From NCBI GenBank assembly GCA_002841405.1, contig PGZR01000005.1:1-64000 (forward strand): a stretch of DNA of 64,000 nucleotides, given 5' to 3'. The position numbers were made by a program, and so were the translations under genes. The notes below the pieces were generated by a model that did no database searches, had not been told where the DNA came from, and saw only the letters and a list, made by a program, of their open reading frames with translations. Every line of letters begins with the position of its first letter. Within the stretch, counting starts at the first letter, position 1. Origin of the DNA: Firmicutes bacterium HGW-Firmicutes-4 (GTDB lineage Bacteria; Bacillota; Clostridia; Eubacteriales; Eubacteriaceae). Of the stretch, positions 21,766 to 41,670 are shown piece after piece.

Positions 21766-22359
21766 ATGAAATACAGCGCCGGTATTGTTACCAATGCATT
21801 TTGGCTAAGTGAAACCCGAAAAACAGCGGAGCTTTTAATAGCCGGAAAAGACTTGAAACAGATCCGCTTACTTGCTCAGTCAGAAAACATCTACCAGGTG
21901 AAAAATGAAACTCGGGCGCTTCGTATTGCCAATGCAATCGTCCAACGGCTTGAAAGCTTGCCAAATGTACTGATGGAAAAAATTGCAAACAGTGATATTG
22001 GCACGGCAAAGCTTCTTATTCTGGTCAGCTTTATGAAAACAGACCTGCTTTTTTTTGAGTTTATGCATGAAGTCTATCGTCCCGCCATCCTTTTGGGTGA
22101 ATATATTATCACCGATCGAGCTATTAACACCTTCTTTGATGAAAAGAAGGCGCAAAGTGAAACAGTGGCAAAGTGGATTGATACCACCATTAATAAATTA
22201 GAACGATGTTATCTGGGGATCCTTCGTGAAGCCGGGCTAGTAAAGATTGAAAATGATAAACGAAAAATCATCATCCCCCATATTGACTACAACCTGAGAA
22301 AACAGCTGACCGAAAACGAATTAACCCCCTACCTTAATGCAGTAACCGGAGAGGCGTAA
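21766..22359 (+). CDS. brxA: BREX protein BrxA (DUF1819)
   Basis: A 197-aa member of the DUF1819/BrxA family, a small helical DNA-binding protein of type 1 BREX. Recognised from MKYSAGIVTNAFWLSETRKTA at the N-terminus, the internal KIANSDIGTAKLLILVSFMK segment, and its place as first structural gene. ATG 21766 follows ATGGAGG. The stop is 1 nt before the brxB start. Family length is about 200 aa, so it is intact. Confidence 0.93.
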   Translation: MKYSAGIVTNAFWLSETRKTAELLIAGKDLKQIRLLAQSENIYQVKNETRALRIANAIVQRLESLPNVLMEKIANSDIGTAKLLILVSFMKTDLLFFEFMHEVYRPAILLGEYIITDRAINTFFDEKKAQSETVAKWIDTTINKLERCYLGILREAGLVKIENDKRKIIIPHIDYNLRKQLTENELTPYLNAVTGEA

Positions 22360-22360
22360 A

Positions 22361-22936
22361 ATGACAAACATCGAATCACGATTGGATAAAATCGAAGAAA
22401 AAATCACCAATGACGATTTTCTAAAGAATAAGGGTCTCGGGAATGAAGTGGGGTATTACATCTTTGACTACGCCCCCAGGAACGAACTGATCGTCAGAGG
22501 ACACATCGCTTATTTAAAAAAGAAAATCAATCAATCATCCAGCGGTCTGAAAATTGTCGAGTTTGATCTCTACAAGATGGTCATTGATGTTTTAAAAGAC
22601 AAGGGCTACCTGGAAAAATGCTTTGATTTTGAAAAAACAAAAGGTTTTGATTTTACCAGCGAAGCGATCATCAAAATGCTGCGGCTGTCCAGTAAATCAA
22701 ACCTGTTAGTGAATCATATTGTGGAAAATACCCCGTCCAATTCCGTAGTTTTCATCACCGGCGTGGGAAAATGTTTCCCCCTGGTGCGATCCCACAACGT
22801 CCTGAATAATCTTCATCAGGTGCTCGACCGTGTTCCGGTGGTGATGTTTTTTCCGGGCATTTATTCAGGCCAGGATTTGCAGCTGTTCGGAACCATTAAA
22901 GACGATAACTATTATCGGGCCTTCAAGCTCATTTAA
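22361..22936 (+). CDS. brxB: BREX protein BrxB (DUF1788)
   Basis: 191-aa DUF1788 protein, the second conserved BREX-1 gene, with unknown biochemical role but needed for defence in studied systems. Seen: IFDYAPRNELIVRGHIAYLK, a DLYKMVIDVLKDKGYLE segment, and the C-terminal VVMFFPGIYSGQDLQLF. It begins 1 nt after the brxA stop, with GGAGAGG inside brxA as ribosome site. Length is normal for the family. Confidence 0.93.
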   Translation: MTNIESRLDKIEEKITNDDFLKNKGLGNEVGYYIFDYAPRNELIVRGHIAYLKKKINQSSSGLKIVEFDLYKMVIDVLKDKGYLEKCFDFEKTKGFDFTSEAIIKMLRLSSKSNLLVNHIVENTPSNSVVFITGVGKCFPLVRSHNVLNNLHQVLDRVPVVMFFPGIYSGQDLQLFGTIKDDNYYRAFKLI

Positions 22937-23011
22937 TTCACATATATTAAGATAGATACATTTAATTCATGATCATTAAATTAAAATAATCATATTTTGG
23001 AGGGAAAAAAG

Positions 23012-26000
23012 ATGCGCATTGCAGAGATGTTTGTAAAACCAATCGACCGCGACATAAAAGGCGTCATAAAAGTGGGGCAGGACGACGATGCCAATATTTA
23101 TCAGGAACTGGATGAATATGTGGTTACCAAAGAGTTACAAAAACACTTCCGCAGCTTTTTTGAAAGCTATAAAAACGGCATTAATGGCCATACCGATAAA
23201 ATGGGGGTCTGGATTTCAGGCTTCTTTGGTTCCGGTAAATCCCACTTTCTAAAAATCCTCTCCTATCTCCTTGAAAACAAAGACGTTAACGGAAAAAAAG
23301 CGATTGAATTTTTCACCGACGGCAGCAAGCTAAATGATCCGATGATCATTGCCAACATCCGCCTGGCCGAAAACATTTCTTCCGATGTGATCCTCTTCAA
23401 TATCGACTCCAAAAGCGAATCCAATTCAAAATCCACTAAAGATGCCATTATCGATGTCTTCATGAAAGTATTCAATGAAATGCAGGGCTTCTGCGGCTCC
23501 CTGCCTTTTCTAGCCGACCTGGAACGCAAGCTTTCCGATGACGGCGCCTATGAAGGCTTTAAAACAAAATTTTCAGAAGTGTCCGGCAATCGCTGGGAAG
23601 ATGCCCGGGAAGATTTCTACTTTATTCAGGATGAACTGGTCCAGGTGCTCTCAGCCCAGGGGATCATGAGTGAAGAGGCAGCCCGAACCTGGTGTGAAAA
23701 AGCAGCGGATACCTATACCTTATCGATTGATAAATTTGCCAGCCTGATTGGGCAATACTGTGAAAGCAAAGGGAAAAACCATCACGTCGTCTTTATGGTG
23801 GATGAAATCGGCCAGTACATTGCCGATGATGCCCGGCTGATGCTTAATCTCCAAACTGTCACCGAAGATCTGGGCACCGCCTGCGGTGGGAAAGCCTGGG
23901 TGGTGGTGACCAGTCAGCAGGATATTGATTCGGTTGTCACGGTTAAAGGCAGCGATTTCTCCAAGATCCAGGGCCGCTTTGATACCCGGTTATCCCTGTC
24001 CAGCTCCAATGTGGATGAGGTCATCCGGAAACGAATTTTAGGGAAAAATGATACCGGCAGTCTAACCCTGCAATTATATTATGATCACAAAGAATCGGTC
24101 ATTAAAAATCTGATTACCTTTTCCGGTGAAGTCGAAAAGAAATTATACCGGGACCGGGACGAGTTTGCCGAAGTCTATCCTTTTATTCCCTATCAATTCA
24201 ATCTGCTGGGACAGGTTTTAACAGCCGTCCGCACTCACAGTTCCTCAGGTAAGCATCTGGCCGAAGGGGAACGCTCAATGATCGCCTTATTCAAAGAATC
24301 CGCGATGACCTTAAAGACAGAATCCGAAGGGGCTATTGTGCCGTTTTATGTCTTTTACAACGCCCTGGATCAATTTATCGATCATACCCATCGCATTGTC
24401 ATTAAGCAGGCCGAAGAAAACACCAAACTGCAGCCAATCGATGTGGAATTGCTTAAAATCCTTTTTATGATTAAACACGTCAAAGAGATTAAGGCCAACA
24501 CCGAAAATTTAACCACCCTGATGGTTTCGAACATCGATGATGATCGTATCAACCTCCGTAAAAAAGTGGAAGCCTCCCTGAGCCGTTTAATCGCCCAGAC
24601 ACTAGTACAGAAAAATGGCGAAGTCTATCTGTTCCTGACCAACGAAGAACAGGACATTAACCGGGCGATCCAGAATGAAACCGTGGAAATGGGCGAAATC
24701 ATCAACGAAGCTGCCACCATTATTTTCCAGGAGATCATTAAAGAAAACAAGTTTCGGTATAACAACCGCTATCATTTTGCCTACAACCAGATTGTCGATG
24801 GCCGCTTTTTCAAAAACAGCCAATCCGCAGATATGGGTGTCCATATCATCACCCCCTATAACGATCAGGATTATCCCACCGAATCCCTGCGGATGCTTTC
24901 CGCCCAGAATCCCGAAGTGCTGGTTCATTTACCCAGTGATGCCACCTTCCTGGATGAAATCATGGAGAGCCTGAAAATCAGTAAGTTCATGACCAAACAG
25001 GGGGTGGCACTGGACAAAAACTTCGGCAGCATCAAACGGGCCAAGCAGGATGAACTCATCGAAAAGAAACAGCGGATTCGCATTTTCATTGAAGAAGCCA
25101 TTAAAAATGCCGACCTCTACACCTGTGGGGCGCAGACAAGTATTGCCACCAAAGATCCGGAAACCCGGATCAACGATGCCCTGGGCAAGCTGGTCAACAC
25201 CCGTTACAACAAACTCTATTACATGGAAACCCAGCCCTCAGCCGCGGACATTGAGGCGATTTTTAAACTGTCAAATATCATCAATGCCAATAATCCCGCC
25301 ACTCAGGCCGCCAATAGTCTGGCCTTAAGTGACATGTTAAACGCCATCGAGCTCCTTTCCCGTAAATATAAACTGTCGCTGAAATCCCTATTGAAGCATT
25401 TTGCCGATGCCCCTTATGGCTTTATTGACTGGGATGTCCGGTGGCTGGTGGCGATGCTCTTTAAACAGGGGAAGCTGAGTTTGATTTTAAACAGCGAAAC
25501 CCTATCGCCTCTGGATGCCGACCCCAAAGAACTGCTGAAGATCCTCTCTAAAAATGACTATGCGGAAAAACTCCTGATTGAAAAGCGGGAACACCCAACC
25601 GAGGCACAAATCAAATCGGTTAAAGAAGTGATGAAAAAACTCTTTTCGATGACTGCCGTCAGCGATGAAGAAGATACCATCATCAAAACGTTTAAAACAA
25701 AGCTGGCTAACAAAAGCAGCGAAATTAAAAACCTCCTGGTCGAATACCGGATTGAAAGCCGTTTTCCGGGAAAACACGTCTTATTAAGTGCCCAGGAGCT
25801 GTTTAATGAAATTGATATGATCACCAACGCGCTGCTATTTTTTAAGTTTGTCCATGAGCAGCGGGATGATTTGCTGGAAACCGCCGACGAGATTGAACCG
25901 GTGATTAGTTTCTTTGGCAGCGAACAAAAAGAAATCCTCAAAAAAGCCTTTAAAGATATCGACCTCTTTGAAAAAAGCAAAAATTTTATCGTCGACCAGG

Positions 26001-26581
26001 AATTAAAAGATACTATTGCTGAGATCCGAACCATTGCCATAAAACCTTACCCCTACAATGAAATCTTCAAACTGCCGGATCTATTGATGAAATACGCCAA
26101 ACGACATATCATCCTGATTGAAAATGAAGCAAAACCCATTCATGATCTTATTCTCAGTGACGAGAAAGCGGTATTGGTGCAACTGACTTCGGCAACGGTT
26201 AGAGAGAAATTTGAAACCCGTTATGTTCGAGTATTCAGAGAATTGATGGATAAGCTGGAACACGCTAATGACATTGCCAGCGTGAAGAGCATCCGTAATG
26301 AAAGTGCCATCATCAGAGAACGTTTTTTAGACGAGATTGTTGCTTATCAAAATCAAATTGAAGTGGTTTATCCACCGCCAGAGCCAGGTAATGATGGCGG
26401 TACTGTAGCCGAACCACCTCCTAAAAAAACAAAAACCGTTCGCTTTAAGTCAATGGCCATCGCCAGTAATGTCACCATCGAAAAGGAAAGTGATGTGGAC
26501 GCCTTTATCCAGACCATTAAGAGCGAGCTGTTAAAAGAACTGAAAGCGAACGATAACACCATCATCAATTTAACCATTTAA
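23012..26581 (+). CDS. brxC: BREX ATPase BrxC
   Basis: 1189-aa P-loop ATPase (DUF499-like/BrxC), the largest core component of BREX-1. Walker A GFFGSGKSHFLK near residue 70; Walker B-like HHVVFMVDEIGQYI around residue 260. The frame opens at TTG 22997, but TTGGAGGG precedes ATG 23012, which starts MRIAEMFVKPIDRDIKG as in the family. A Pro-rich linker (YPPPEPGNDGG...EPPPKK) precedes the last 60 residues. There is a 75-nt AT-rich gap before it; pglX follows after 14 nt. Confidence 0.95.
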   Translation: MRIAEMFVKPIDRDIKGVIKVGQDDDANIYQELDEYVVTKELQKHFRSFFESYKNGINGHTDKMGVWISGFFGSGKSHFLKILSYLLENKDVNGKKAIEFFTDGSKLNDPMIIANIRLAENISSDVILFNIDSKSESNSKSTKDAIIDVFMKVFNEMQGFCGSLPFLADLERKLSDDGAYEGFKTKFSEVSGNRWEDAREDFYFIQDELVQVLSAQGIMSEEAARTWCEKAADTYTLSIDKFASLIGQYCESKGKNHHVVFMVDEIGQYIADDARLMLNLQTVTEDLGTACGGKAWVVVTSQQDIDSVVTVKGSDFSKIQGRFDTRLSLSSSNVDEVIRKRILGKNDTGSLTLQLYYDHKESVIKNLITFSGEVEKKLYRDRDEFAEVYPFIPYQFNLLGQVLTAVRTHSSSGKHLAEGERSMIALFKESAMTLKTESEGAIVPFYVFYNALDQFIDHTHRIVIKQAEENTKLQPIDVELLKILFMIKHVKEIKANTENLTTLMVSNIDDDRINLRKKVEASLSRLIAQTLVQKNGEVYLFLTNEEQDINRAIQNETVEMGEIINEAATIIFQEIIKENKFRYNNRYHFAYNQIVDGRFFKNSQSADMGVHIITPYNDQDYPTESLRMLSAQNPEVLVHLPSDATFLDEIMESLKISKFMTKQGVALDKNFGSIKRAKQDELIEKKQRIRIFIEEAIKNADLYTCGAQTSIATKDPETRINDALGKLVNTRYNKLYYMETQPSAADIEAIFKLSNIINANNPATQAANSLALSDMLNAIELLSRKYKLSLKSLLKHFADAPYGFIDWDVRWLVAMLFKQGKLSLILNSETLSPLDADPKELLKILSKNDYAEKLLIEKREHPTEAQIKSVKEVMKKLFSMTAVSDEEDTIIKTFKTKLANKSSEIKNLLVEYRIESRFPGKHVLLSAQELFNEIDMITNALLFFKFVHEQRDDLLETADEIEPVISFFGSEQKEILKKAFKDIDLFEKSKNFIVDQELKDTIAEIRTIAIKPYPYNEIFKLPDLLMKYAKRHIILIENEAKPIHDLILSDEKAVLVQLTSATVREKFETRYVRVFRELMDKLEHANDIASVKSIRNESAIIRERFLDEIVAYQNQIEVVYPPPEPGNDGGTVAEPPPKKTKTVRFKSMAIASNVTIEKESDVDAFIQTIKSELLKELKANDNTIINLTI

Positions 26582-26595
26582 GAGGAGAACAGCCA

Positions 26596-29500
26596 GTGAA
26601 TAAGACAGCCATTAAAGAATTTGCCATCGAAGCCCGAAAAAAGCTGATTGCATCGGTAAAAGACAAGGCCGGAAAAATCGGGATTACCGCCGACACCATC
26701 ACCCCAGCCATTACCACCGGCAATGGCTTTGCCGTCTTTCCCACCCATTTCGGAACCGAAACAACCCTCACCGGAAAAGAACTGCTGCAACGGGATAATC
26801 TTATAAGTCATATCAAAGAAAAAGGCTACGATGCCGTTATGGAAGAAGTCGCCTATACCTGGTTTAACCGGATTATTGCGGTGCGTTTTATGGAAGTGAA
26901 TGACTACCTGCCATCCCGGATCCGGGTTCTTTCCTCAGAAAAAAAAGATCAGCTAGAGCCGGATCTGGTGACCCAGGCGCCGAATATTGAGCTCGATCTG
27001 ACTGAAGCGGAAAAAGATGCGATCTACGATTTGAAGCTAAAAAATGAAATGGACAGCCTGTTTCAGATGCTCTTTATTAAGCAATGCAACGCTCTGGGAG
27101 AAATTCTGCCTGAGCTTTTTGAGAACACTTCAAAGAATAATAAAGACTATACTGAAATTCTATTGGATATTTCATACACCAATGAAGACAGCGTGATTCG
27201 GGATCTGTTGAAAATTGATGAAGCGGATTTTTTGGATGCGGTGGAAATTATCGGCTGGATGTATCAGTATTACAATACCGAACCAAAAGACGAAACCTTC
27301 GCGCTTTTAAAAAAGAACGTTAAAATAACCAAAGAGCGGATTCCCTCAGTTACCCAGCTCTTCACTCCGGATTGGATTGTCCGTTATATGGTGGAGAATT
27401 CTCTGGGTAGACTGTGGCTGGAGGGTCATGACAATGCTGATTTAAAAGCAAACTGGAAATACTATCTGGATGAGGCTGAACAGGAACCGGAAGTATTGGC
27501 ACAGCTTGAAGAATTAAGAGCAGATGCTAAAAACCTGAACCCGGAAGACATTAAAGTCATCGACGCCTGTATGGGCAGTGGCCATATTTTGGTTTATGCT
27601 TTTGAAGTGCTGATGCAGATTTATAAAAGCTGTGGTTATACCGAAAAAGATGCCGCCAGACTGATTATTGAAAAGAACCTTTACGGCCTGGACATTGATG
27701 ACCGGGCTTTTCAGCTGGCTTATTTTGCGGTGATGATGAAAGGGAGAAAATACAACCGCCGGATTTTAACCAGTGGGATAAAAACCAACCTCTGTGGGAT
27801 TCAGGAAAGCAATACCATCAAACCGGAGATTGCCGACTTTATCGCACATGGCGATACGGCACTTCAAAAAGATGTGGCAGCCATTCTTGATGTGTTTATG
27901 GATGCCAAAGAATATGGCAGTATTTTGGAAGTGCAACCCCTTGTTTTTAAGGTGTTGAATAACCGAGTGAAAGAAATCGCTGAGACGGTTTATGACAATA
28001 TTATGGAGCGCATTCATCAGGATGATGTGGTTAATCAATTTTTACCCTTATTAAAACAGGCAGAGATCATGGCTCGAAAATATGATGCGGTGATTACCAA
28101 TCCTCCTTATATGGGCAGCAGTGGCATGGGGCCGAAGCTGGGGGATTATGTAAAGAAGCATTATCCTGATAGCAAAAGTGATACGAGTACCGTTTTTATG
28201 CAGAAAACATTGGATATGTGTAATTCAAAAGGAATAATGTCAATGATTAATATTCCAGTTTGGATGTTTTTAACCAGCTATGAAAAGCTACGCAAAAATA
28301 TTCTTGAAAAGAATAGTTATATTAATATGCTCCACTTTGGTCGTGGAGTGTTTGGTTCTGATTTTGGAACAACAGCGTTTGTAATAGCTAAAAAAAATAT
28401 GCCATACTACAAAGCAATTTATCAAAAACTATTTATGAAACAAGGAGCCGTTGATAACGTAGATCAAAAGGAAAAGTGGTTTTTTGAAGGGATTGGTAAA
28501 CACATAACACTGCAAGAAAACTTTGCCAAAATTCCTGGAATGCCAATTGCTTATTGGGTGAGTGAAAACGTGCAAAAAGCATTTGAGGGTGAAAGAATTA
28601 GTAATTATGGGCAAGCTTGTATTGGTATGCGAACTGGTGAAAATGCAAAATTCTTGCGTACATGGTTTGAGATTTCTTTTGATAAATTAGGTTTAAACCT
28701 TGATAATGCAAAAGAAACAATAGAAAAATCAATAAAGTGGATACCGTATAATAAAGGCGGAAATTTCAGAAAATGGTACGGAAATAACGAGATTGTAGTG
28801 AATTGGGGAAATAATGGAGAAGAAATAAAGGAAGAAACACGAAGAAAATACCCATATCTGGGAGATGATTTAGGTTGGAAAATAAGTAACGAGCAATTTT
28901 ATTTTAAAGAATCGATAACATGGTCATTTATTAGTGCATCCAAATTCGGGGTTAGATACTCACCTTCTGGTTTCATTTTTGATGTTGCGGGTTCATCTTT
29001 GTTTACGAATGAAAATTTTGAATATATGTTAGCATTTTTATCTACGAAAATTGCATTTGATTTTTTAAAAATCCTTAATCCAACATTAAATTATCAGATA
29101 AAGGATATAAAATCATTACCGTATATATTTTCTGAAAAATATAAATTTGCAATAGCTGAATTGGTTAACTTTAATATTTCAATTTCACAGAATGACTGGG
29201 ACTCCTTCGAAACCTCCTGGGATTTTAAAACCCATCCCTTAGTTACACTCAGAATGGCCGGTGCTTCGGCATGGGGCGATGAAAAGCCAAAGTGTCGCCT
29301 TTCTTCGGCCTTTAAAGCCTGGGAGTTACAAACAGAAGGTCAATTCACCCAGCTCAAAGCTAACGAAGAAGAACTCAACCGGATCTTCATCGAAATCTAC
29401 GGCCTGGAAGATGAGCTCACCCCTGAGGTGGAAGATAAAGACGTAACCATCCGCAAGGCTGATCTTGGCCGGGATATCCGTTCCCTCATTTCCTATGCGG

Positions 29501-30219
29501 TGGGCTGTATGCTGGGACGTTATTCCCTGGATGTGGAAGGCCTTGCTTATGCCGGCGGAGAGTGGGAAGCAGGCAAATACAATACCATTATTCCTGATCA
29601 GGACAATATCATTCCCATTACTGATGAGGAATACTTTGATGATGATATGGTAGCGCGATTGGTCAACTTTGTCAAAGTGGTTTATGGTGAAGACACCCTG
29701 GAAGAGAATCTGGATTTTATCGCCAATGCTTTGGGGAATAAAGGCAACACCTCCCGAGAAATCATCCGGAATTACTTGCTGAAAGACTTCTATAAAGAAC
29801 ACGTGAAAATCTATCAGAAACGGCCGATTTACTGGCTCTTTGACAGCGGCAAGGAAAACGGCTTTAAAGCCCTGATCTATATGCACCGTTACGATGAAGA
29901 CACCGTCGGCCGGGTCCGGACCGATTACCTCCATAAAATCCAGGCCAAACTGGAAGATGGCATCAACCACGCCAATATGGTCTTAAACAGCGATGCCCCA
30001 GCCAGTGATAAAGCCAGTGCGGTTAAGAAAAAAGAAAAACTGATCAAGCAATTAGCCGAAACCCAGCTCTATGACCAGGCCATCGCCCACATCGCGCTGC
30101 AACGCATCCCCATCGATCTGGATGACGGAGTCAAGATCAATTACGCCAAATTCCAGGATGTGGAAGTATCCAGCGAAGGGAAAAAAGCGGTAAAGGTTAA
30201 TTTGCTGGCCAAGATTTAG
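26596..30219 (+). CDS. pglX: BREX adenine methyltransferase PglX, copy 1
   Basis: 1207-aa N6-adenine methyltransferase that marks host DNA in BREX-1 and is needed for defence. Motif I is DACMGSGHILVYAF at residue 323, and motif IV is NPPY at residue 502. Starts at GTG 26596 with AGAGGAG. Residues 1 to about 229 differ from copy 2 at only nine positions by eye, and the last about 270 residues are also nearly identical. The part after NPPY (about 28,110-29,190) is unrelated to copy 2 and clearly more AT-rich. That middle part is where target recognition is expected. Motif I has Ala where copy 2 has Pro (DPCMGSGH). No frameshift. Confidence 0.95.
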   Translation: MNKTAIKEFAIEARKKLIASVKDKAGKIGITADTITPAITTGNGFAVFPTHFGTETTLTGKELLQRDNLISHIKEKGYDAVMEEVAYTWFNRIIAVRFMEVNDYLPSRIRVLSSEKKDQLEPDLVTQAPNIELDLTEAEKDAIYDLKLKNEMDSLFQMLFIKQCNALGEILPELFENTSKNNKDYTEILLDISYTNEDSVIRDLLKIDEADFLDAVEIIGWMYQYYNTEPKDETFALLKKNVKITKERIPSVTQLFTPDWIVRYMVENSLGRLWLEGHDNADLKANWKYYLDEAEQEPEVLAQLEELRADAKNLNPEDIKVIDACMGSGHILVYAFEVLMQIYKSCGYTEKDAARLIIEKNLYGLDIDDRAFQLAYFAVMMKGRKYNRRILTSGIKTNLCGIQESNTIKPEIADFIAHGDTALQKDVAAILDVFMDAKEYGSILEVQPLVFKVLNNRVKEIAETVYDNIMERIHQDDVVNQFLPLLKQAEIMARKYDAVITNPPYMGSSGMGPKLGDYVKKHYPDSKSDTSTVFMQKTLDMCNSKGIMSMINIPVWMFLTSYEKLRKNILEKNSYINMLHFGRGVFGSDFGTTAFVIAKKNMPYYKAIYQKLFMKQGAVDNVDQKEKWFFEGIGKHITLQENFAKIPGMPIAYWVSENVQKAFEGERISNYGQACIGMRTGENAKFLRTWFEISFDKLGLNLDNAKETIEKSIKWIPYNKGGNFRKWYGNNEIVVNWGNNGEEIKEETRRKYPYLGDDLGWKISNEQFYFKESITWSFISASKFGVRYSPSGFIFDVAGSSLFTNENFEYMLAFLSTKIAFDFLKILNPTLNYQIKDIKSLPYIFSEKYKFAIAELVNFNISISQNDWDSFETSWDFKTHPLVTLRMAGASAWGDEKPKCRLSSAFKAWELQTEGQFTQLKANEEELNRIFIEIYGLEDELTPEVEDKDVTIRKADLGRDIRSLISYAVGCMLGRYSLDVEGLAYAGGEWEAGKYNTIIPDQDNIIPITDEEYFDDDMVARLVNFVKVVYGEDTLEENLDFIANALGNKGNTSREIIRNYLLKDFYKEHVKIYQKRPIYWLFDSGKENGFKALIYMHRYDEDTVGRVRTDYLHKIQAKLEDGINHANMVLNSDAPASDKASAVKKKEKLIKQLAETQLYDQAIAHIALQRIPIDLDDGVKINYAKFQDVEVSSEGKKAVKVNLLAKI

Positions 30220-30240
30220 TTTTTTAAAAAGGAGGGCATA

Positions 30241-30993
30241 GTGAATAAAGACATTTTATATTTTGTCAAATTTGGTGAACGAAAACATCTTGAGAGTTTA
30301 TCAAATGGTGATTTATTCTTCTCCCACGCAGGTGCATTTATTAAGCAAGAACGTGAACAACAAAAAAAGGGGCAAGGTGATGCCTATGAAGGTCGAATGA
30401 ATTTCATAGCTTGCAACGGGAAAATGTACGATTTTTACACAAATGAGCTTATAGCATCAATGACTAATGCAAGTATAAATCTAGGATTTGAATATGTTGA
30501 GAATATGCCAATATTTTGCTTGACAGCAGGTTATTTGGCGGATTGCGAATATGTAAATAATAGAAGATATTTTTTAAAATTTAGACAAGAGAAGAAGAAA
30601 ATTATAGAAAAACATTTTGAAAAAGCTGATACTGCTTTGATAATAAATAAACCTGAACATTTTATTCAAGATGTTAAAAAATCATTCAAAGCGCAATGTC
30701 ATGCTGATACAGTAAAATATTTTAATATGACACAGATAACAATTGATAGATTGACTTATTTAGAGACAGGTTCTATTGAAAAAAAAGAATTGGAAAACTT
30801 TGATATGACAGTAGATAAAGCTTTTCGGCACCTTTATTGTAAGGATACATTTTTTAAAGAACAGTCAGAATTTAGATTTGCAATTCCAAAACTGCAAATT
30901 TTCGAACCACAGACTTTTAACATTAAAATGAGAAATTATGTTAAGTTATATGATATCAATACATTTTTTGATGGAATTGAAATAATGTTATAA
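30241..30993 (+). CDS. Unrecognised 250-aa protein between the pglX copies
   Basis: GTG 30241 with GGAGGG upstream. The product starts MNKDILYFVKFGERKHLESL, with SNGDLFFSHAGAF and KKGQGDAYEGRMNF. This layout recalls the DUF2971-like proteins sometimes found in defence loci, but the match is by memory of motif style only. The rest is charged, with no membrane segment. The gene is very AT-rich compared with pglX flanks and uses AT-ending codons, so it was likely acquired. It lies 21 nt after pglX1 and 16 nt before pglX2, in one transcript. Confidence 0.8.
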   Translation: MNKDILYFVKFGERKHLESLSNGDLFFSHAGAFIKQEREQQKKGQGDAYEGRMNFIACNGKMYDFYTNELIASMTNASINLGFEYVENMPIFCLTAGYLADCEYVNNRRYFLKFRQEKKKIIEKHFEKADTALIINKPEHFIQDVKKSFKAQCHADTVKYFNMTQITIDRLTYLETGSIEKKELENFDMTVDKAFRHLYCKDTFFKEQSEFRFAIPKLQIFEPQTFNIKMRNYVKLYDINTFFDGIEIML

Positions 30994-31009
30994 ATTTGGA
31001 GGACAGCCA

Positions 31010-34000
31010 GTGAATAAGACAGCCATTAAAGAGTTTGCCATCGGAGCCCGAAAAAAGCTGATTGCATCGGTTAAAGACAAGGCCGGAAAAATCGGGATTA
31101 CCGCTGACACCATCACCGCAGCTATTACCACCGGAAATGGTTTTGCCGTTTTTCCCACCCATTTTGGCACTGAAACAACCCTTACCGGAAAAGAACTGCT
31201 GCAACGGGACAACCTGATCAGTCAGATCAAAGAAAAAGGCTATGATGCCGTCATGGAAGAAGTCGCCTACACCTGGTTTAACCGGATTATTGCGGTGCGT
31301 TTTATGGAAGTGAATGACTACCTGCCATCCCGGATCCGGGTGCTGACCTCTGAAAAAAAAGAACAGCTGGAGCCGGATCTGGTGACCCAAGCGCCGAATG
31401 TTGAGCTGGATCTCACCGATGCTGAAAAAGATACGATCTACGATTTAAAACTAAAGAATGAAATGGACAGCTTGTTTCAGATGCTCTTTATTAAGCAGTG
31501 CAACGAATTGGGAGAAATCCTCCCGGAGCTTTTTGAAAATACCTCAAAGAATAATAAAGACTATACTGAAATCCTGCTGGATATTTCCTATACCAATGAA
31601 GACAGCGTCATTAGGGATCTGCTAAAAATTGATGAAGCGGATTTCCTGGATGCCGTGGAGATTATTGGCTGGATGTACCAGTATTATATCTCTGATATTA
31701 ATGAAATAGTTTATGATGGTAACATGTCCAAAGAAAGAATACCAAAAGAATTATTACCTGCAGCGACACAGCTTTTTACACCAGATTGGGCTGTAAAGTA
31801 TATGGTAGAAAACTCAATCGGTAAACTGTGGCTGGAAGGCCATGAGAATGCTGATTTAAAAGCAGACTGGAAATATTATCTGGATGAAACTGATCAAGAA
31901 CCGGAGGCATTGGTACAGCTTAATGATTTAAAAGCGGAAGCCAAAAACCTAAACCTGGAAGAAATCAAGGTCATCGACCCCTGTATGGGCAGTGGCCATA
32001 TTTTGGTTTATGCCTTTGAAGTGCTGATGCAGATTTATAAAAGCTGCGGTTATACCGAAAAAGATGCCGCTAAGTTGATCATTGAAAAGAATTTGTATGG
32101 CCTGGATATTGACGATCGGGCTTTCCAGCTTGCTTATTTTGCAGTATTGATGAAGGGCCGAAAATACAACTGTCGAATTTTATCACTGGATATTAAAACC
32201 AACATCTGTGGTATTCAAGAGAGCAATACCCTAAAACAAGTGATCATAGGTTTTATTGCAAATGGAGATAAGACACTTCAAAAGGATGTGGAAGCGATTC
32301 TTGACGTGTTTACTGATGCCAAAGAATATGGCAGTATTTTGGATGTGCAACCCCTTGCTTTTGATGCCCTCAATAACCGAGTCAAAGAAATTGATGAAAT
32401 GGTTTATGACAATATCATGGATCGCATACATCAGGATGATGTGATTAATCAATTTGCTCCACTTTTAAAACAGGCAGCCATTATGGCACAAAAATATGAT
32501 GTGGTTATTACCAACCCTCCTTATTTAAGTAGTTCAAGGATGAGTTTTAAATTAGTTGAGTATAATGCAAAGACTTATCCAGAAGTGAAATCTGATTTTT
32601 CAATGATTTTTTATAAAAAAGCAATTGACAGTTTTGTAAAAGAAAAGGGTTTTATTTCCTTTATTACAACAAATTCATGGATGTTTTTAAAAAGTTTTGA
32701 GATGATTAGAACACAAACCATAGATGAATTGCAGTTTGAATCAATTGTAGATTTTGGTACAGAACTTTTTGATGGAAAAGTTGGTCATAATCCCATCGTT
32801 TCATGGGTTAGCAGGAAGTCTAAACCACTTAAGAAGTTCATCGGAGTAAGATTAGTGGATTATTGCTATAGTAGAAGAGATGAAAAAGAACCAGAGTTTT
32901 TTAATCTAACAAACAGACATATAACAAATCAAAAAAACTTTGAAAAAATCCCTGGCACGCCAATTGCCTATTGGGTGAGTGAAAAAATAATAGAAGCTTT
33001 TAAAATAGCAAAATCACTAGATTCCATTGCTAAACCTAGGAAGGGTTTGACAACAGCTAACGATGCTGTTTATTTAAGATTTTGGTACGAAGTATCTTTG
33101 AGGAAATTAGCTCATAATTTTAGCAACAAAAAACAAGAGGTAGATGGTAATGAAAAATGGTTCCCAATTAACAAAGGCGGTGAATATCGCAAATGGTATG
33201 GTAATAATGAATATATTATAAACTGGGAAAATGATGGGTTTGAACTTAAAAATTACAAGAATGCAGTTATACGAAATATAGATTATTATTTTAAAAATTC
33301 CATTACATGGAACGATATAACTTCAAAAAAAGTATCCTTTAGATATAAAGAATCAGGGCAAATTTTCAATGATGCTGGACCAAGTATTTTCGGAAATTCA
33401 GATGACTTAAAATACTTACTTGGTTTTGGTAACAGCATTGTTTCAGAGGAGATCTGTAAAATTGTAGCACCAACTATACATTATGGTGTGGGTCAAATTG
33501 CAAAGTTACCAGTGAAAAATAATGAAAAATTTAAAATTAGAGTGCTGAAATTAACAAATGAAAATGTTGAACTTGCAAAAAACGACTGGGACTCTTTCGA
33601 AACCTCCTGGGATTTCAAAAGGCACCCACTACTTACTTTTGCATCAATTGAATGTCTTGGTGAGCTTCGAACGTACTATCAAGATGAAAATGGTCATTTG
33701 GTAGATAAATGGACAACTCTGAATATGAACACACTGGAAGATGCTTTTATGATGTGTCAGAATTTCACCGAACTGTACTTCTCTCAGCTCAAAAAAAACG
33801 AAGAAGAACTCAACCGCATTTTCATTGAAATCTATGGTCTGGAAGACGAACTCACGCCCGAAGTGGAAGATAAAGACATCACCATCCGCAAAGCTGATCT
33901 GGGCCGGGACATCCGCTCCCTCATTTCTTATGCGGTGGGCTGTATGCTGGGACGTTATTCTCTGGATGTGGAAGGACTAGCCTATGCCGGCGGTGAGTGG

Positions 34001-34654
34001 GAAGCAGACAAGTACACCACCATTATTCCAGATAAAGACAATATCATTCCCATTACCGATGAGGAATACTTTGACGACGATATGGTGGCTCGGCTGGTCA
34101 ACTCTGTTAAAGTGGTTTATGGTGAAGAAACCCTGGAAGAGAATCTGGATTTTATTGCCGGTGCTTTAGGTAATAAAGGCAATACCTCCAGAGACGTTAT
34201 CCGCAATTACTTCCTGAAAGATTTCTACAAAGACCACCTGAAAATCTATCAGAAACGCCCGATCTACTGGCTCTTTGACAGCGGCAAGGAAAACGGCTTT
34301 AAAGCCCTGATCTATATGCACCGCTACGATGAAGACACCGTCGGCCGTGTCCGGACAGATTATCTTCACAAAATCCAGGCCAAACTGGAAGATGGCATCA
34401 ACCATGCCAATCTGGTCTTAACCAGTGAGGCCCCGGCCAGTGACAAAGCCAGCGCGGTTAAGAAAAAAGAAAAACTGATCAAGCAATTAGCCGAAACCCA
34501 GCTCTATGATCAGGCCATCGCCCACATCGCCCTGCAACGTATCCCCATCGATCTGGATGACGGGGTCAAGGTGAATTACGCCAAGTTCCAGGATGTGGAA
34601 GTGTCCAGCGAAGGCAAAAAAGCGGTCAAGGTTAATTTGCTGGCCAAGATTTAA
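31010..34654 (+). CDS. pglX: BREX adenine methyltransferase PglX, copy 2
   Basis: 1214-aa second PglX in the same orientation. Motif I is DPCMGSGHILVYAF at residue 323 and NPPY at residue 502, both at the same positions as in copy 1. The GTG start and the preceding ACAGCCA match copy 1, so the shared sequence begins just before the start codon. Residues about 230-260 differ (ISDINEIVYDGNMSKERIP), the methyltransferase core is similar but diverged, and the region after NPPY to about 33,580 is unrelated and AT-rich. From NDWDSFETSWDFK on, similarity returns, except for an alternative 40-residue block (LGELRTYYQDENGHL). It is probably a functional methyltransferase with another target. Confidence 0.95.
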   Translation: MNKTAIKEFAIGARKKLIASVKDKAGKIGITADTITAAITTGNGFAVFPTHFGTETTLTGKELLQRDNLISQIKEKGYDAVMEEVAYTWFNRIIAVRFMEVNDYLPSRIRVLTSEKKEQLEPDLVTQAPNVELDLTDAEKDTIYDLKLKNEMDSLFQMLFIKQCNELGEILPELFENTSKNNKDYTEILLDISYTNEDSVIRDLLKIDEADFLDAVEIIGWMYQYYISDINEIVYDGNMSKERIPKELLPAATQLFTPDWAVKYMVENSIGKLWLEGHENADLKADWKYYLDETDQEPEALVQLNDLKAEAKNLNLEEIKVIDPCMGSGHILVYAFEVLMQIYKSCGYTEKDAAKLIIEKNLYGLDIDDRAFQLAYFAVLMKGRKYNCRILSLDIKTNICGIQESNTLKQVIIGFIANGDKTLQKDVEAILDVFTDAKEYGSILDVQPLAFDALNNRVKEIDEMVYDNIMDRIHQDDVINQFAPLLKQAAIMAQKYDVVITNPPYLSSSRMSFKLVEYNAKTYPEVKSDFSMIFYKKAIDSFVKEKGFISFITTNSWMFLKSFEMIRTQTIDELQFESIVDFGTELFDGKVGHNPIVSWVSRKSKPLKKFIGVRLVDYCYSRRDEKEPEFFNLTNRHITNQKNFEKIPGTPIAYWVSEKIIEAFKIAKSLDSIAKPRKGLTTANDAVYLRFWYEVSLRKLAHNFSNKKQEVDGNEKWFPINKGGEYRKWYGNNEYIINWENDGFELKNYKNAVIRNIDYYFKNSITWNDITSKKVSFRYKESGQIFNDAGPSIFGNSDDLKYLLGFGNSIVSEEICKIVAPTIHYGVGQIAKLPVKNNEKFKIRVLKLTNENVELAKNDWDSFETSWDFKRHPLLTFASIECLGELRTYYQDENGHLVDKWTTLNMNTLEDAFMMCQNFTELYFSQLKKNEEELNRIFIEIYGLEDELTPEVEDKDITIRKADLGRDIRSLISYAVGCMLGRYSLDVEGLAYAGGEWEADKYTTIIPDKDNIIPITDEEYFDDDMVARLVNSVKVVYGEETLEENLDFIAGALGNKGNTSRDVIRNYFLKDFYKDHLKIYQKRPIYWLFDSGKENGFKALIYMHRYDEDTVGRVRTDYLHKIQAKLEDGINHANLVLTSEAPASDKASAVKKKEKLIKQLAETQLYDQAIAHIALQRIPIDLDDGVKVNYAKFQDVEVSSEGKKAVKVNLLAKI

Positions 34655-34752
34655 AGACGAGTCGATCGATTTATTTATTATGAAACAGTTCAAAAAGAGG
34701 GCTAACCCAGACTTTGAAAGAATCCATTATAAAGGGGGTTATTCTCAACCAT

Positions 34753-34984
34753 GAGCGGAAACGAGCGGATAATGAGCGGATAACGAGCGATTGATGAGCG
34801 ATAATGAGCGAATTAAACCCCAATGAAAAATTGATTGTGAGTTGCCTGATCGAAAACCACAGAATAGTCAGCAGGGCTGTGGTAATTTTAACTGTTTTAT
34901 CATCTGTCCAGGTAAGACGAATTTTTATGTCATTATTATTGATGAAAAAAATAATTGCTATGTTTATTGGAAAAGGGGTGACGT
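34753..34984 (+). pseudogene. Remnant of an HTH tail with GAGCGGATAA repeats (AlbA_2/RecG-like ATPase C-terminus)
   Basis: Six repeats of about 10 bp (GAGCGGAAAC, GAGCGGATAAT, GAGCGGATAAC, GAGCGATTGAT, GAGCGATAAT, GAGCGAATT) lie at 34753-34812, then a 71-codon frame from ATG 34804: ELNPNEKLIVSCLIENHRIV and SSVQVRRIFMSL. In one family of AlbA_2-domain ATP-binding proteins, NERI-type repeats precede a C-terminal winged helix of this type. Here the reading frames are broken, so it is a decayed tail of such a gene. The 330-bp gap between pglX2 and pglZ holds nothing else. Confidence 0.5.
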
Positions 34985-37507
34985 ATGAACCTACAAACCA
35001 TACAAGATCTATTAAATAAAGAATTCCTCGGGGAGCATCGCCGACTGGTCTTCTGGTATGATGACAATGGCGAGTTTGATGAAGACATTGAGACGCTGGG
35101 GCTTAGTAACGCCAAGGTGTATCGTTTAACCGGGGATAACACCTTATATACCAAATACTTTCTGGAGTGCGTGGATCAGGAAACGAATTATCTGGTGTAT
35201 GCCCCCTTTGCGAAGCCTGGAGATAAAGACAACCATTTGGCGGATATGTTTTACTATTCCCGACAATTCTTTACCGATCGGGTCTCACTTCTTTGCAGCA
35301 CCTATGCTATTCCCGACAAATATAAGGATCAGTTATCCCGTTATGGCAAGTTCTGGAAGTCTAATGAACGGATTGATAAGTTTGTGGCCCTGGGCATTGA
35401 GGAGTATAATCCGGAAATCATTGAAGTTGGTCTTCTTGCGGTTATGGCAGGGGTTAAAAGTCCCAGCTTTGATGAGGTTTTAAAGAAGCTGATCACCAGT
35501 GGCGGCTTAACCAATAATAAAGTTCTGGCGGAGTTTCAGAAAATGGATCTGCTGGCGATCTTTTGGGATTTATGCGCCCGGTATCATGGCTATGAAGAGG
35601 CGCACCCCAGCTTTGAAAAACTGGTGGCCACACTGCTGCTCACCTATACCGCTACCTGTTATCAGGGGGAATTACCTAAAGGCTGGCAGCCGTTTATCTC
35701 GCATAAGAAAAACGATGTCTCGATTTTTGTTTCCAATCTCATGAACAACATGCTCTATAAAGACCAGTATGATGGAATTGCCAGCGAAATCGGGGTTAAG
35801 CTCAGGGTTGGGGAATTCCTGGAAAATGTTCCATCCGAAAACTATTTTGAGTGTGATACCTTTGAAGGCTTTGATCGAAACATCATTAAGGCCATGGCAG
35901 CGGGTCTGATGACCAGCGAAGAACCTTTTTCGGTGGAATACCGGGAAATTATCCGCAACCGCAGCAGCAAAAAACATTTTTCAGCAAAATACCAGCATTA
36001 CTACAAAGCGCTTGATAAGGCGGATCAACTCATTGCCCACATTCAAAGCTTTGGCAAAGATGTGCCCAAGGATGCCGATGCGTTCATGTTGCTTTATACC
36101 AGCAAATGGGCCAATATCGATCGGTACTATCGGGGCTTCTATACGGCTTATGACCGGATTGATGGAGATGATGCCCTGCATGAGCTCAGAAACTGGGTTG
36201 AGAACCGCTACACCAATGCCTATCTGTTGAAATTGTCGATTGGCTGGGCGGATGCCCTAGAAAAGGTCAATTGTTGGGACGGTTTAACCGGCGACAAGCA
36301 GTCTGATTTTTACCAAAAACAGGTGGCCCCGGCGGTAAAAAAAGAAGCCACGGTGGTGATTATCTCGGATGCCCTGCGGTATGAATGCGGGTTGGAGCTC
36401 AACAAACGCTTAAATGAACGGGCAAATACCAAATCAGAAATATCCCCGATGATTTCGGTGCTGCCGTCCTTTACCCGTTTGGGCATGGCGGCGTTATTAC
36501 CCCATGAATCGATCACCATCACCTCGGCCTGTGACGTCCTGGTTGACGGCATGCCCTGTATCTCTAGCGATCAGCGGGAAAAAATACTTAAAACCCATAA
36601 TCCCTTATCGATAGTGACTTCATGCAAAGAGATCATGGCAATGAATCGGGATTCTGTTCGTAAACTGATGACCGGCCAGGAACTGTTCTATATTTATCAT
36701 AATCAGATTGATGCCCGTGGGGACCATATGGCCACTGAGAATGAAGTTTTTTCAGCCGCGGACGAAGCGGTGAATGAAATCATCAATCTGATCCAAAAGC
36801 TTACCGTCGATAAATCCTTTACTAATTACATCATTACGGCGGATCATGGTTTTATTTATAAGCGGGATAAGCTGGACGAAAGCGATAAGGTGAATTTACC
36901 CAAGCAGTCCGGGGCCTTTATCAATAAGCGGTTTATTTTAACCAATGAACCGGTGGCTATTAATGGCACCCTGACCTATGCCCTTGATTATCTGGGGGCT
37001 CAAAATAAGGATGTGTTTGTCACGGTCCCCCGGGGTGCGGATATCTTTAAAACACCGGGCGGCGGCCAGAACTATGTCCATGGCGGCGCCAGTCTCCAGG
37101 AAATCGTGGTACCACTGATAAAGGTGAAAACCGAAACCCGGAAAAAAGAAGTGGAAAATGTTGCGGTGGAATTAATCACCTTAAAACGCAAAATTACCAA
37201 CCTGATTGAATATCTGGACTTTATGCAAACGGAGATGGTGTCGGATCGGTTACGGCCGGTTAAGGTCTCGGTTCAATTTGAAAGCGAGACTGGCGAAAAG
37301 ATATCCGATCGGGAAATCATTGTCGCTGATCGCAAAGACGCAGCGGTTGACAAGCGCCAGTTTAAAGAGAAATTTATTTTCCGAAATCAGAAATATTCAA
37401 AAGATGAAAAATATTATCTGGTCATAAAAGATATGAAAACCGATATGGAAGTCGCACGGCATGAATTTATCATCGACATTGCCTTTGCCAATGACTTTGG
37501 ATTTTAG
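34985..37507 (+). CDS. pglZ: BREX protein PglZ
   Basis: 840-aa BREX-1 PglZ with an alkaline-phosphatase-superfamily core; the enzymatic role is not fully settled. Metal-site motifs: VVIISDALRYECGLELN near residue 455 and YIITADHGFIYKRDKL near residue 615. A later block, DVFVTVPRGADIFKTPGG with YVHGGASLQE, is typical of the family. ATG 34985 follows GGGGTG. Adjacent to brxL (18 nt). Complete by length and both ends. Confidence 0.94.
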   Translation: MNLQTIQDLLNKEFLGEHRRLVFWYDDNGEFDEDIETLGLSNAKVYRLTGDNTLYTKYFLECVDQETNYLVYAPFAKPGDKDNHLADMFYYSRQFFTDRVSLLCSTYAIPDKYKDQLSRYGKFWKSNERIDKFVALGIEEYNPEIIEVGLLAVMAGVKSPSFDEVLKKLITSGGLTNNKVLAEFQKMDLLAIFWDLCARYHGYEEAHPSFEKLVATLLLTYTATCYQGELPKGWQPFISHKKNDVSIFVSNLMNNMLYKDQYDGIASEIGVKLRVGEFLENVPSENYFECDTFEGFDRNIIKAMAAGLMTSEEPFSVEYREIIRNRSSKKHFSAKYQHYYKALDKADQLIAHIQSFGKDVPKDADAFMLLYTSKWANIDRYYRGFYTAYDRIDGDDALHELRNWVENRYTNAYLLKLSIGWADALEKVNCWDGLTGDKQSDFYQKQVAPAVKKEATVVIISDALRYECGLELNKRLNERANTKSEISPMISVLPSFTRLGMAALLPHESITITSACDVLVDGMPCISSDQREKILKTHNPLSIVTSCKEIMAMNRDSVRKLMTGQELFYIYHNQIDARGDHMATENEVFSAADEAVNEIINLIQKLTVDKSFTNYIITADHGFIYKRDKLDESDKVNLPKQSGAFINKRFILTNEPVAINGTLTYALDYLGAQNKDVFVTVPRGADIFKTPGGGQNYVHGGASLQEIVVPLIKVKTETRKKEVENVAVELITLKRKITNLIEYLDFMQTEMVSDRLRPVKVSVQFESETGEKISDREIIVADRKDAAVDKRQFKEKFIFRNQKYSKDEKYYLVIKDMKTDMEVARHEFIIDIAFANDFGF

Positions 37508-37525
37508 GAAGTAAGGGGTGATGGA

Positions 37526-39556
37526 ATGAATGAATTATCAGTCAAGCTGATTGATGTTTTTGCCGGAAAGATTGTCCGGAAAGATCTGACCAAAAAGATT
37601 AAAGAAGGCGCCAATGTTCCCATTTATGTGCTGGAGTACCTGCTGGGCATGTACTGCTCCACGACCGATGAAGAGTTGATTGACCAGGGGGTTGCCACGG
37701 TTAAAAATATCCTTTCTGACAACTTTGTCCGGCCGGATGAAGCCCAGAAAATTATTTCCAAACTGCGGGAACGTGGCAGTTATACGGTGATTGATAATGT
37801 TTCGGTAAAACTGAATTTTCGCAATGATGTCTATGAAGCCGAGTTTTCAAACCTGGGAATTAAAAATGTGCCGGTTCCGGAACAATACGCCTCCGAGTAT
37901 GAACGGTTATTGTGCGGGGGGATCTGGTGTATTATTCAACTGGAATATTTTTATGATGAAGGTGATAAAAGCCGTTGTCCCTTTATTATTCAGAAGCTGA
38001 CCCCGATTCAAATGCCCAACCTTGATTTAAATGAAGTGTTAAGTGGTCGTGAACACTTTACCAAAGACGAGTGGATTGACGTGCTGCTGCGTTCCATCGG
38101 GATGGAACCCTCGAAATTTAATAATCGGGTCAAATGGCTGCTGTTAACCCGGATGATTCCGCTGGTTGAAAATAACTTTAATCTCTGTGAACTGGGTCCC
38201 CGGGGTACCGGTAAATCCCATGTGTATAAAGAAATTTCCCCCAATAGTATTCTCGTTTCTGGGGGGCAAACCACGGTTGCCAATCTGTTTTATAATATGT
38301 CCAACCGCACTGTGGGATTGGTGGGCATGTGGGACTGTGTGGCCTTTGATGAGGTGGCCGGGATTACCTTTAAGGATAAAGACGGAATTCAGATCATGAA
38401 GGATTACATGGCTTCGGGTTCGTTTTCCCGGGGTAAGGAAGAAAAGAACGCTTCGGCGTCGATGGTGTTTGTGGGGAATATTAATCAGAGTGTCGATGTG
38501 CTGTTAAAAACCTCCCATCTCTTTGAACCTTTCCCTGAGGCGATGGCTTGTGACAGTGCTTTTTTTGACCGTATGCATTGTTATCTCCCAGGCTGGGAGA
38601 TCCCCAAATATCGACCGGAATTTTTTACCAATGATTACGGCCTGATCACCGATTATCTGTCGGAGTTTTTACGGGAGCTTCGCAAAACCTCGTATTCGGA
38701 TGTATTTGATCCCTATTTCAAACTGGGGAATAATCTTAACCAGCGGGATGTCATTGCCGTCAGGAAGATGGCTTCCGGGCTGATGAAACTGGTTTATCCC
38801 CACTGGAAGTGCGACAAGGCTGGGGTTGAAGAAATTTTGCGACTGGCGCTTGAAAGCCGTCGCCGGGTCAAAGAACAGCTCAAGAAGATTGGCGGGATGG
38901 AGTTTTACGATGTGAATTTTTCCTACATCGACAATGACAGCTTTGTCGAAGAGTTCGTTCCGGTACCGGAGCATGGCGGCGGGAAGCTGATCCCTGAGGG
39001 TTTGCATAAGCCCGGACAGGTTTATACCGTCAGTCGGGGGAAATCCGGAATGATCGGGGTCTTTAAGCTGGAAACCGAGATGGTGGCCGGTTCCGGCAAA
39101 TTTGAACGCACCGGTTTCGGTTCCGATCGGGAAGCCAAAGAAGCCATCGAAACGGCCTACCGCTACTTAAAAGCCAACAGTAAAAATATCAGCGGCACCA
39201 TCAGCACCGCCACCAAGGATTACCTGATGCACTTACAGGATCTCAACGGCATTGGCATTACCCATCAGCTGACGCTGGCAGCCCTGGTGGCCTTGTGCTC
39301 GTCGGCCATGAAAAAACCGGTCATCAGCAGTCTGGCGGTACTTGGCAATCTGAGCATCGGCGGCACCATTATCAAGGTCGAAGAACTGGCCAATGTGCTT
39401 CAGGTCTGCCTGGACAGCGGGGCAAAAAAAGTATTGCTGCCGATTACCTCAACTGTGGATATGATCGCGGTACCACCCGAGCTGATGGGTAAGTTTAATC
39501 TGATCTTTTACCAGAGCCCGGAGGATGCGGTGTTCAAGGCGTTGGGGGTTGAGTAA
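37526..39556 (+). CDS. brxL: BREX Lon-like ATPase BrxL
   Basis: 676-aa last core gene of BREX-1. AAA+ domain with Walker A GPRGTGKSH and Walker B-like DCVAFDEVAGI; a C-terminal Lon-protease-like domain around SAMKKPVISSLAVLGNLSIG and the ELANVLQVCLDSGAKKVLLP segment. In studied systems BrxL binds DNA as a ring and is needed for phage exclusion. ATG 37526 follows AAGGGGTG. After its stop, dispersed repeats begin, marking the edge of the operon. Confidence 0.95.
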   Translation: MNELSVKLIDVFAGKIVRKDLTKKIKEGANVPIYVLEYLLGMYCSTTDEELIDQGVATVKNILSDNFVRPDEAQKIISKLRERGSYTVIDNVSVKLNFRNDVYEAEFSNLGIKNVPVPEQYASEYERLLCGGIWCIIQLEYFYDEGDKSRCPFIIQKLTPIQMPNLDLNEVLSGREHFTKDEWIDVLLRSIGMEPSKFNNRVKWLLLTRMIPLVENNFNLCELGPRGTGKSHVYKEISPNSILVSGGQTTVANLFYNMSNRTVGLVGMWDCVAFDEVAGITFKDKDGIQIMKDYMASGSFSRGKEEKNASASMVFVGNINQSVDVLLKTSHLFEPFPEAMACDSAFFDRMHCYLPGWEIPKYRPEFFTNDYGLITDYLSEFLRELRKTSYSDVFDPYFKLGNNLNQRDVIAVRKMASGLMKLVYPHWKCDKAGVEEILRLALESRRRVKEQLKKIGGMEFYDVNFSYIDNDSFVEEFVPVPEHGGGKLIPEGLHKPGQVYTVSRGKSGMIGVFKLETEMVAGSGKFERTGFGSDREAKEAIETAYRYLKANSKNISGTISTATKDYLMHLQDLNGIGITHQLTLAALVALCSSAMKKPVISSLAVLGNLSIGGTIIKVEELANVLQVCLDSGAKKVLLPITSTVDMIAVPPELMGKFNLIFYQSPEDAVFKALGVE

Positions 39557-40507: not shown

Positions 40508-40600
40508 TTGTCTACAAAAGTTATCAAAGTGGGTAACGCCAAGGGATTTAGAAATGATCGACGAATTGACAGAAAATTAGAAAGGAGCCAAAATGGATAA
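40508..40600 (+). pseudogene. Possible N-terminal scrap of a MazE/AbrB-type antitoxin
   Basis: 31 codons starting at TTG 40508: LSTKVIKVGNAKGFR resembles the beginning of MazE/AbrB-type proteins, then unrelated sequence to a stop overlapping the rhuM start. Too short to be functional. The similarity is by eye. Confidence 0.3.
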
Positions 40601-41609
40601 AACGAATAATATCATCCGCAGTTCTGCCGCTGAATATCTGACCTTCATTACCGCCACCGGCGAAAGTGACGTTAATGCGATCTATGCCGATGAAGATGTT
40701 TGGTTATCGCAAAAAATGATGGGTGTGCTGTATGATGTAGAAACGCAGACAATTAATTATCACCTGAAAAAGATATTTGCTGATAATGAATTGATTGAAA
40801 ATTCAGTTATTCGAAATTTTCGAATAACTGGATCAGATGGTAAAAACTACAATACCAAGCATTATAACTTATCGGCGATTATTGCGGTTGGTTATAAAGT
40901 GAATTCAGAAAAAGCCGTTCAATTTCGGAAATGGGCGACTGAAATCGTCAGGGAATTTACAATCAAAGCTTATGTGATGGACGATGAACGGTTAAAAAAC
41001 AATGGGACGATTCTAACAAAGGATTACTTCGAAGAACAATTAGAGCGGATTCGTGAAATTCGTTTGAGTGAAAGACGTTTTTATCAAAAAATTACCGATA
41101 TTTACGTGACCAGCCTTGATTATGACAGAAATGCTGCCACGACTAAACGCTTTTTCGCCACCGTTCAAAATAAACTTCATTGGGCGATACATCAGGAAAC
41201 AGCGGCTGAGACGATTTATAACCGCGCGGACAGCGAAAAAGAAAATATGGGCTTGATGTCCTGGAAAGATGCGCCAGTTGGCAAGATTCAAAAATTTGAT
41301 GTGGTGGTGGCTAAAAATTATCTGTCCGAAAAAGAAATGTCGCAGCTGGCGCGCTTAGTAAATAGTTATTTGGATCTGGCAGAAGATTTTGCCCTCCGGG
41401 AAATTCCGATGACAATGAGCGATTGGGAAGAACGACTGAATGCATTTTTAAAACTTACTGATCGTGACGTGTTAAATGATGCTGGAAAAATATCGGCTGC
41501 CATTGCTAAAAATAAAGCACTCGCAGAATTTGAGAAATATCGGGTAAAACAGGACTTAACTTACCAGTCGGATTTTGATCGCTTGATTGAAGGCATAGAA
41601 AAAGTCTAA
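40593..41609 (+). CDS. RhuM family protein
   Basis: 338-aa RhuM-family protein (first named in a Salmonella pathogenicity island; function unknown). Such genes are very often part of type I restriction-modification loci, between hsdM/hsdS and hsdR, which fits the hsdR fragment that follows. Seen: a Bro-N-like N-terminal half with [32 protein letters not shown] and a C-terminal half with the conserved [23 protein letters not shown] 40593 follows AAAGGAG. Full length. A 27-nt palindrome sits inside the gene at 40804. Confidence 0.9.
40804..40830. repeat. 27-nt palindrome inside rhuM
   Basis: CAGTTATTCGAAA, a central T, then TTTCGAATAACTG: a perfect 13-bp inverted repeat, coding for SVIRNFRIT. 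It could act as a binding site or hairpin, or it may reflect codon choice at a conserved protein motif. Confidence 0.75.
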
Positions 41610-41670
41610 CCAAAAGAACCAAATACCTGTCCAAACGAGACCAAGATATATAAAAAATAAATGGGGAAAT

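Follow-up and report, generated by a model that had tools for sequence, protein, structure and literature searches.

The window analysed here, a stretch of 64,000 nucleotides, lies on a 76-kb contig of an Acetobacterium draft genome bin (225 contigs, 86% complete), the nearest named relatives of the source genome being Acetobacterium. A complete BREX type 1 operon was found at positions 21766-39556, with all genes on the forward strand and every type 1 component present in the order brxA-brxB-brxC-pglX-A-250-aa gene-pglX-B-pglZ (type A)-brxL. Profile searches identified brxA (21766-22359; Pfam BrxA, 2e-55), brxB (22361-22936; Pfam BrxB, 4e-44), brxC (22997-26581; PADLOC BrxC, 1397 bits), pglZ (34985-37507; TIGR02687, 628 bits) and brxL (37526-39556; Pfam BrxL_ATPase, 3e-147). 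The gene order, and a BREX-1 PglX with NPPY, are shared with the type 1 systems of E. coli HS, S. Typhimurium StySA, B. cereus and L. casei Zhang; this operon differs in carrying two full-length pglX genes with an extra gene between them.

Both pglX genes are intact open reading frames on the same strand, pglX-A at 26596-30219 (1207 aa) and pglX-B at 31010-34654 (1214 aa), and both match the BREX-1 PglX family model (NCBIfam BREX_1_MTaseX, NF033452; 1427 and 1339 bits, cut-off 500). Each contains the SAM-binding motif I, with its D at residue 323, and NPPY starting at residue 502, in agreement with an earlier sequence-only reading of this DNA. The genome bin, at 86% completeness, yielded one match each for brxC and pglZ and two for pglX, that is, two pglX genes with one BREX gene set. 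The accessory gene (30241-30993, 250 aa) has a GC content of 0.29 and is weakly DUF2971-like. Gaps of ~15-22 nt separate brxC, pglX-A, the accessory gene and pglX-B, and the same ribosome-binding stretch precedes each pglX (26584-26595 for A, 30998-31009 for B), the repeat starting there, 12 nt 5' of the start codons. Given the single brxC and pglZ, the short gaps and the separate ribosome-binding stretches, pglX-A and pglX-B probably share both an operon and their partner proteins. Predicted promoters and terminators at the locus did not exceed the counts obtained in shuffled sequences.

Alignment of the two genes at the base and codon level revealed a sharp mosaic with defined borders rather than uniform divergence. 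Residues 1-226 are 86-92% identical in DNA and differ at exactly nine amino-acid positions, the number previously counted by eye. Residues 227-252 (variable block 1; 27274-27351 in A, 31688-31765 in B) are unrelated in sequence, which locates precisely a second variable block that had been placed near residues 230-260. A middle core of residues ~253-505, with 77-90% DNA identity, adds to the shared parts, and beyond it residues 506-918 fall to 27-51% protein identity with short better-conserved islands. This divergent region comprises variable block 2, the second half of the methyltransferase domain (A, residues 506-640, 28111-28515; B, from residue 506, 32525-32938), followed by the target recognition domain (TRD) with its spacer (A, residues 641-918, 28516-29349; B, 32939-33784; domain limits from PMC11341690 and PMC11842806). 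As had been noted, the variable parts after NPPY are also AT-rich, with a GC content of 0.29-0.35 against 0.44-0.48 in the ends. The last ~290 residues (~919 to the end) are 87-99% identical in protein and 86-95% in DNA, and the shared parts overall reach 77-95% DNA identity. The earlier description of nearly identical C-terminal ends thus held for the proteins but not for the DNA, where synonymous divergence is about 0.5 and no exact shared tract exceeds 71 nt.

The shared ends showed a dS of 0.46-0.50 and a dN/dS of ~0.04-0.06, so that neither copy looks decayed; the purifying selection recorded there could largely predate the coming together of the two genes. The longest exact tracts shared by A and B measured 71, 59 and 56 nt. 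Recent gene conversion between the copies was sought as near-identical tracts or low dS, and neither was found; with dS near 0.5 and the longest tract at 71 nt, there is no sign of recent homogenisation of the ends. The proposal that the copies recombine with each other accordingly gained no positive evidence, since their dS resembles that between genomes: the pglX ends of different Acetobacterium genomes diverge synonymously by 0.24-0.44. Taken with the short exact tracts, these between-genome values favour a coming together of two alleles over a fresh duplication or ongoing conversion.

Phylogenetic analysis of the separate regions gave conflicting trees. pglX-A and pglX-B were sisters in the trees of the N-terminal part (support 99/98) and of the core (99/99); for both regions, a grouping of A and its Acetobacterium relatives that leaves B outside was rejected (p-AU 1e-128 and 1e-8, respectively). 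For residues 505-640, A grouped with A. dehalogenans and Acetobacterium sp. E21 (support 92/94); a clade uniting A and B was rejected (p-AU 1.5e-9). In the C-terminal part the sister pairing of A and B received low support (56/19), and a clade of A without B was again rejected. Because the trees of the N-terminal part and core conflict with that of residues 505-640, the mosaic is real. Two alleles from different strains joined within the metagenome bin would produce a similar picture, and the draft state of the genome, with its 225 contigs and 86% completeness, would permit such an artefact, as would the fact that related Acetobacterium alleles differ in the same manner. We consider this explanation very improbable: the exact tracts do not exceed 71 nt, both genes lie within one 76-kb contig with different sequence on the inner side of each, and similar direct pairs occur elsewhere, one of them (G249) in a single-contig genome.

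The mosaic pattern extends well beyond this pair, which qualifies the earlier reading: the mosaic stands and is not special to A and B. Single-copy pglX genes of three other Acetobacterium genomes have ends with dN 0.02-0.04 and TRDs with dN 0.5-0.7. In three plasmid alleles of L. salivarius, identity is 91-97% across the N-terminal part, core and C-terminal part and 35-42% in the TRD; across residues 505-640, two of them are 85% identical and the third is 35-37% identical to these. This pattern indicates that residues 505-640 and the TRD can be exchanged separately, and on these sequence comparisons a sharp mosaic is what the pglX family normally shows. A foreign origin of the variable parts, considered on the basis of their low GC, is weakened because low TRD GC is family-wide: third-position GC falls below that of the ends in 124 of 135 PglX homologs, with a median drop of 0.16. 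Across the 135 sequences, third-position GC in residues 505-640 is lower by a median of 0.09.

Comparison of ~130 PglX sequences separated variable blocks 1 and 2 into module classes. Block 1 of pglX-A belongs to the common class, and that of pglX-B to a rare class (VYDGNMSK..LLPAAT) found in six of the ~130, namely B, a Lachnospiraceae sequence (L043), Paenibacillus elgii (L069), L010, L021 and L112. The same six have a different stretch after NPPY (NPPYLSSSRMS in B) and share a loop of the GTELFDGKVGHN type in block 2. They form one clade, requiring one change, in trees of residues 227-262, 505-640, 505-575 and 576-640, and are scattered, requiring 5-6 changes, in trees of the N-terminal part, both core halves, the C-terminal part and the TRD; a single clade of the six was rejected on the end parts (p-AU 7e-74). 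The core between blocks 227-252 and 505-640 follows the frame, not the module. The rare class was set by clade membership in the 505-640 tree, as the strict signature pattern misses the P. elgii sequence, and the classes were defined after the data had been seen. A sign test on six independent pairs found the classes coupled in 5/5 informative pairs with the strict pattern (p 0.06). Given this weak test and the post hoc classes, more rare-class members are needed; none were found in the class and family of genome G089, and the L. salivarius and Mesobacillus plasmid PglX considered as candidates turned out to be common-class.

Exchange of TRDs within a conserved frame is familiar from the specificity proteins HsdS, Type IIG and Type IIL (MmeI). 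PglX differs from these in that block 227-252 travels with the methyltransferase half at residues 505-640, far from it in the sequence, and separately from the TRD; this joint exchange, as judged from the sequences compared, seems to be new here. In the solved structure of E. coli BrxX, the TRD (residues 651-837) reads bases 1-4, the loop 587-601 reads base 6, and T243, L245, V557, F592 and I595 surround the flipped adenine (PMC11842806). On our alignment, in BrxX numbering, T243 and L245 fall just after block 1, and V557, F592, I595 and the loop 587-601 fall in block 2, which in pglX-A contains the equivalent of this base-6 loop (PMC11842806). The parts that differ between A and B coincide with the BrxX TRD and base-6 loop. 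These positions on solved PglX structures, together with the incongruent trees, bear out the view of one scaffold with exchanged recognition modules. Blocks 1 and 2 are thus spatial neighbours at the flipped-adenine pocket of E. coli BrxX, which may be the reason for their joint exchange, and we predict that sequence class is linked to the base read at position 6.

A possible and still somewhat doubtful general model is that PglX evolves its specificity through the swapping of a methyltransferase module in two pieces (residues 227-252 and ~505-640, with ~250 conserved residues between) and, independently, of the TRD; structural coupling of the pieces would centre on the flipped adenine and the final base of the site, and two such alleles could be stacked on a single BREX machine to give a two-motif BREX. 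Loop-only swaps in E. coli BrxX lost defence, as seen in three failed hybrids (PMC11842806). A coupled two-piece module might help to explain the failure of these loop-only swaps, and suggests where to cut for functional PglX swaps.

BREX type 1 systems characteristically methylate a non-palindromic 6-bp motif (6mA) and exclude phages. BREX specificity is determined by PglX (PMC11341690). The TRDs of A and B are 33-51% identical and their base-6 loops differ, so two motifs are predicted. We think it probable that the two pglX alleles of the operon have different target sequences and share a single BrxABC/PglZ/BrxL set, two specificities on one BREX being the likeliest consequence of the exchanged modules, and we infer that A and B would both be expressed and active, reading different motifs. 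The conserved N-terminal and C-terminal parts would bring each PglX into the shared BREX complex, which that PglX would then guide to a 6-bp site of its own; two motifs would carry methylation in the host, and phage DNA that lacks either of the marks would be excluded. Should both be active, a single complex would serve two recognition sequences and widen defence without a second system.

Alternatively, only one pglX could be active, the other being a reserve, silent or weak, that can supply modules for recombination into the active copy. Motif I of pglX-A reads DACMGSG, with an alanine (P324A) where the other homologs read have proline, and pglX-A might therefore be weaker; the exact tracts of 71, 59 and 56 nt in the shared ends could also serve recombination. 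Such a reserve nevertheless seems unlikely to us, as both frames are open, NPPY and a ribosome-binding site are present in both genes, dN/dS is low at both ends and no recent conversion tracts were seen. In beta-class methylases, moreover, the positions that follow the D of motif I can hold other residues.

According to PMC11341690, pglX is commonly phase-variable, and a phase-variable switch of expression or specificity, as in some BREX loci, would find homologous direct copies here that could delete or fuse. The arrangement expected of a phase-variable locus, an inverted partial pglX with a recombinase, is not the one observed: the copies are direct and complete, and Pfam scans, which covered the BREX genes and ten other ORFs (19.4-56 kb), matched no recombinase, as the sequence-only reading had anticipated. 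Neither inverted repeats of ≥30 nt nor an inverted pglX piece in the 80 related loci were detected, and we hold a switch to be extremely improbable.

Four other Acetobacterium loci have the same operon with one pglX and varying accessory genes between pglX and pglZ, an interval that behaves as a site of insertion within the operon; by eye, these genes resemble an ATPase with TOPRIM and AbiE-like pairs (L026, L027, L028, L109). By eye, too, the sequence 5' of pglX-A resembles the brxC-pglX junction of the relatives, and that 3' of pglX-B resembles what follows pglX in some of them. From this anatomy, the piece gained would amount to the length of one pglX and the 250-aa gene (29% GC): a second pglX allele from a relative may have entered the pglX-pglZ interval together with the low-GC accessory gene. 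A BLAST search with the spacer gave no match. Searches of Pfam, NCBIfam and PADLOC placed the accessory gene in no family at standard thresholds (best, a weak DUF2971, E 0.11), and it matched nothing among plasmids, phages and viral contigs; its relatives lie in unrelated contexts. Structure prediction gave a pLDDT of 28.5 from the single sequence and 51.4 from five sequences, with no PDB match.

Multiple pglX genes recur elsewhere. Further copies were found in 3 of 80 related loci, taken with flanks of up to 10 kb; all were direct and none inverted. A sample of 393 genomes added two more loci (G249 and G400), giving at least five other direct multi-pglX loci: Fournierella An912 (G1027), G249, Pseudobutyrivibrio OR37 (L073), L077/G1029 and G400. 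These resemble the present locus in having direct copies in or beside one BREX locus, and their full-length pairs likewise combine conserved ends with a divergent TRD; they differ in the other genes or larger distances between the copies, and the second copy in Pseudobutyrivibrio OR37 is cut short. The full-length Fournierella copies, 12.3 kb apart, have ends with 77-94% DNA identity and 38-51% across 505-918, and the full-length direct pair of G249 shows the same profile as A/B. Other defence genes lie near both pairs. Goldfarb et al. 2015 (cited in PMC11842806) recorded duplications and phase variation of pglX, so that doubled pglX as such is already known; to the extent that this citation describes them, those clusters also hold more than one pglX, whereas the copies here are direct and full length, with no recombinase found.

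Several side observations concern the surroundings of these loci. In Fournierella (L062, 7225-9517), the space from brxC to the first pglX holds CBASS-like genes, namely a SAVED gene with an HNH-like part and a DncV-like nucleotidyltransferase. G249 has a third pglX (L164; contig C1, 257805-261506) far from BREX, with shared ends and a divergent middle relative to the other two. At 40593-43680 in the present window, a RhuM-family gene precedes an ORF of 669 aa for a type I restriction R subunit; this ORF aligns to the PADLOC model only from ~position 389, so its N-terminal part seems to be missing, and the two genes are probably a decayed type I system beside BREX. The BREX and restriction genes are flanked by ORFs at 19411-20652 and 45006-45533, which have no Pfam family and are 83% identical in protein over 131 residues and 80% in DNA over 410 nt, possibly representing copies of one gene at the two ends of the defence island.
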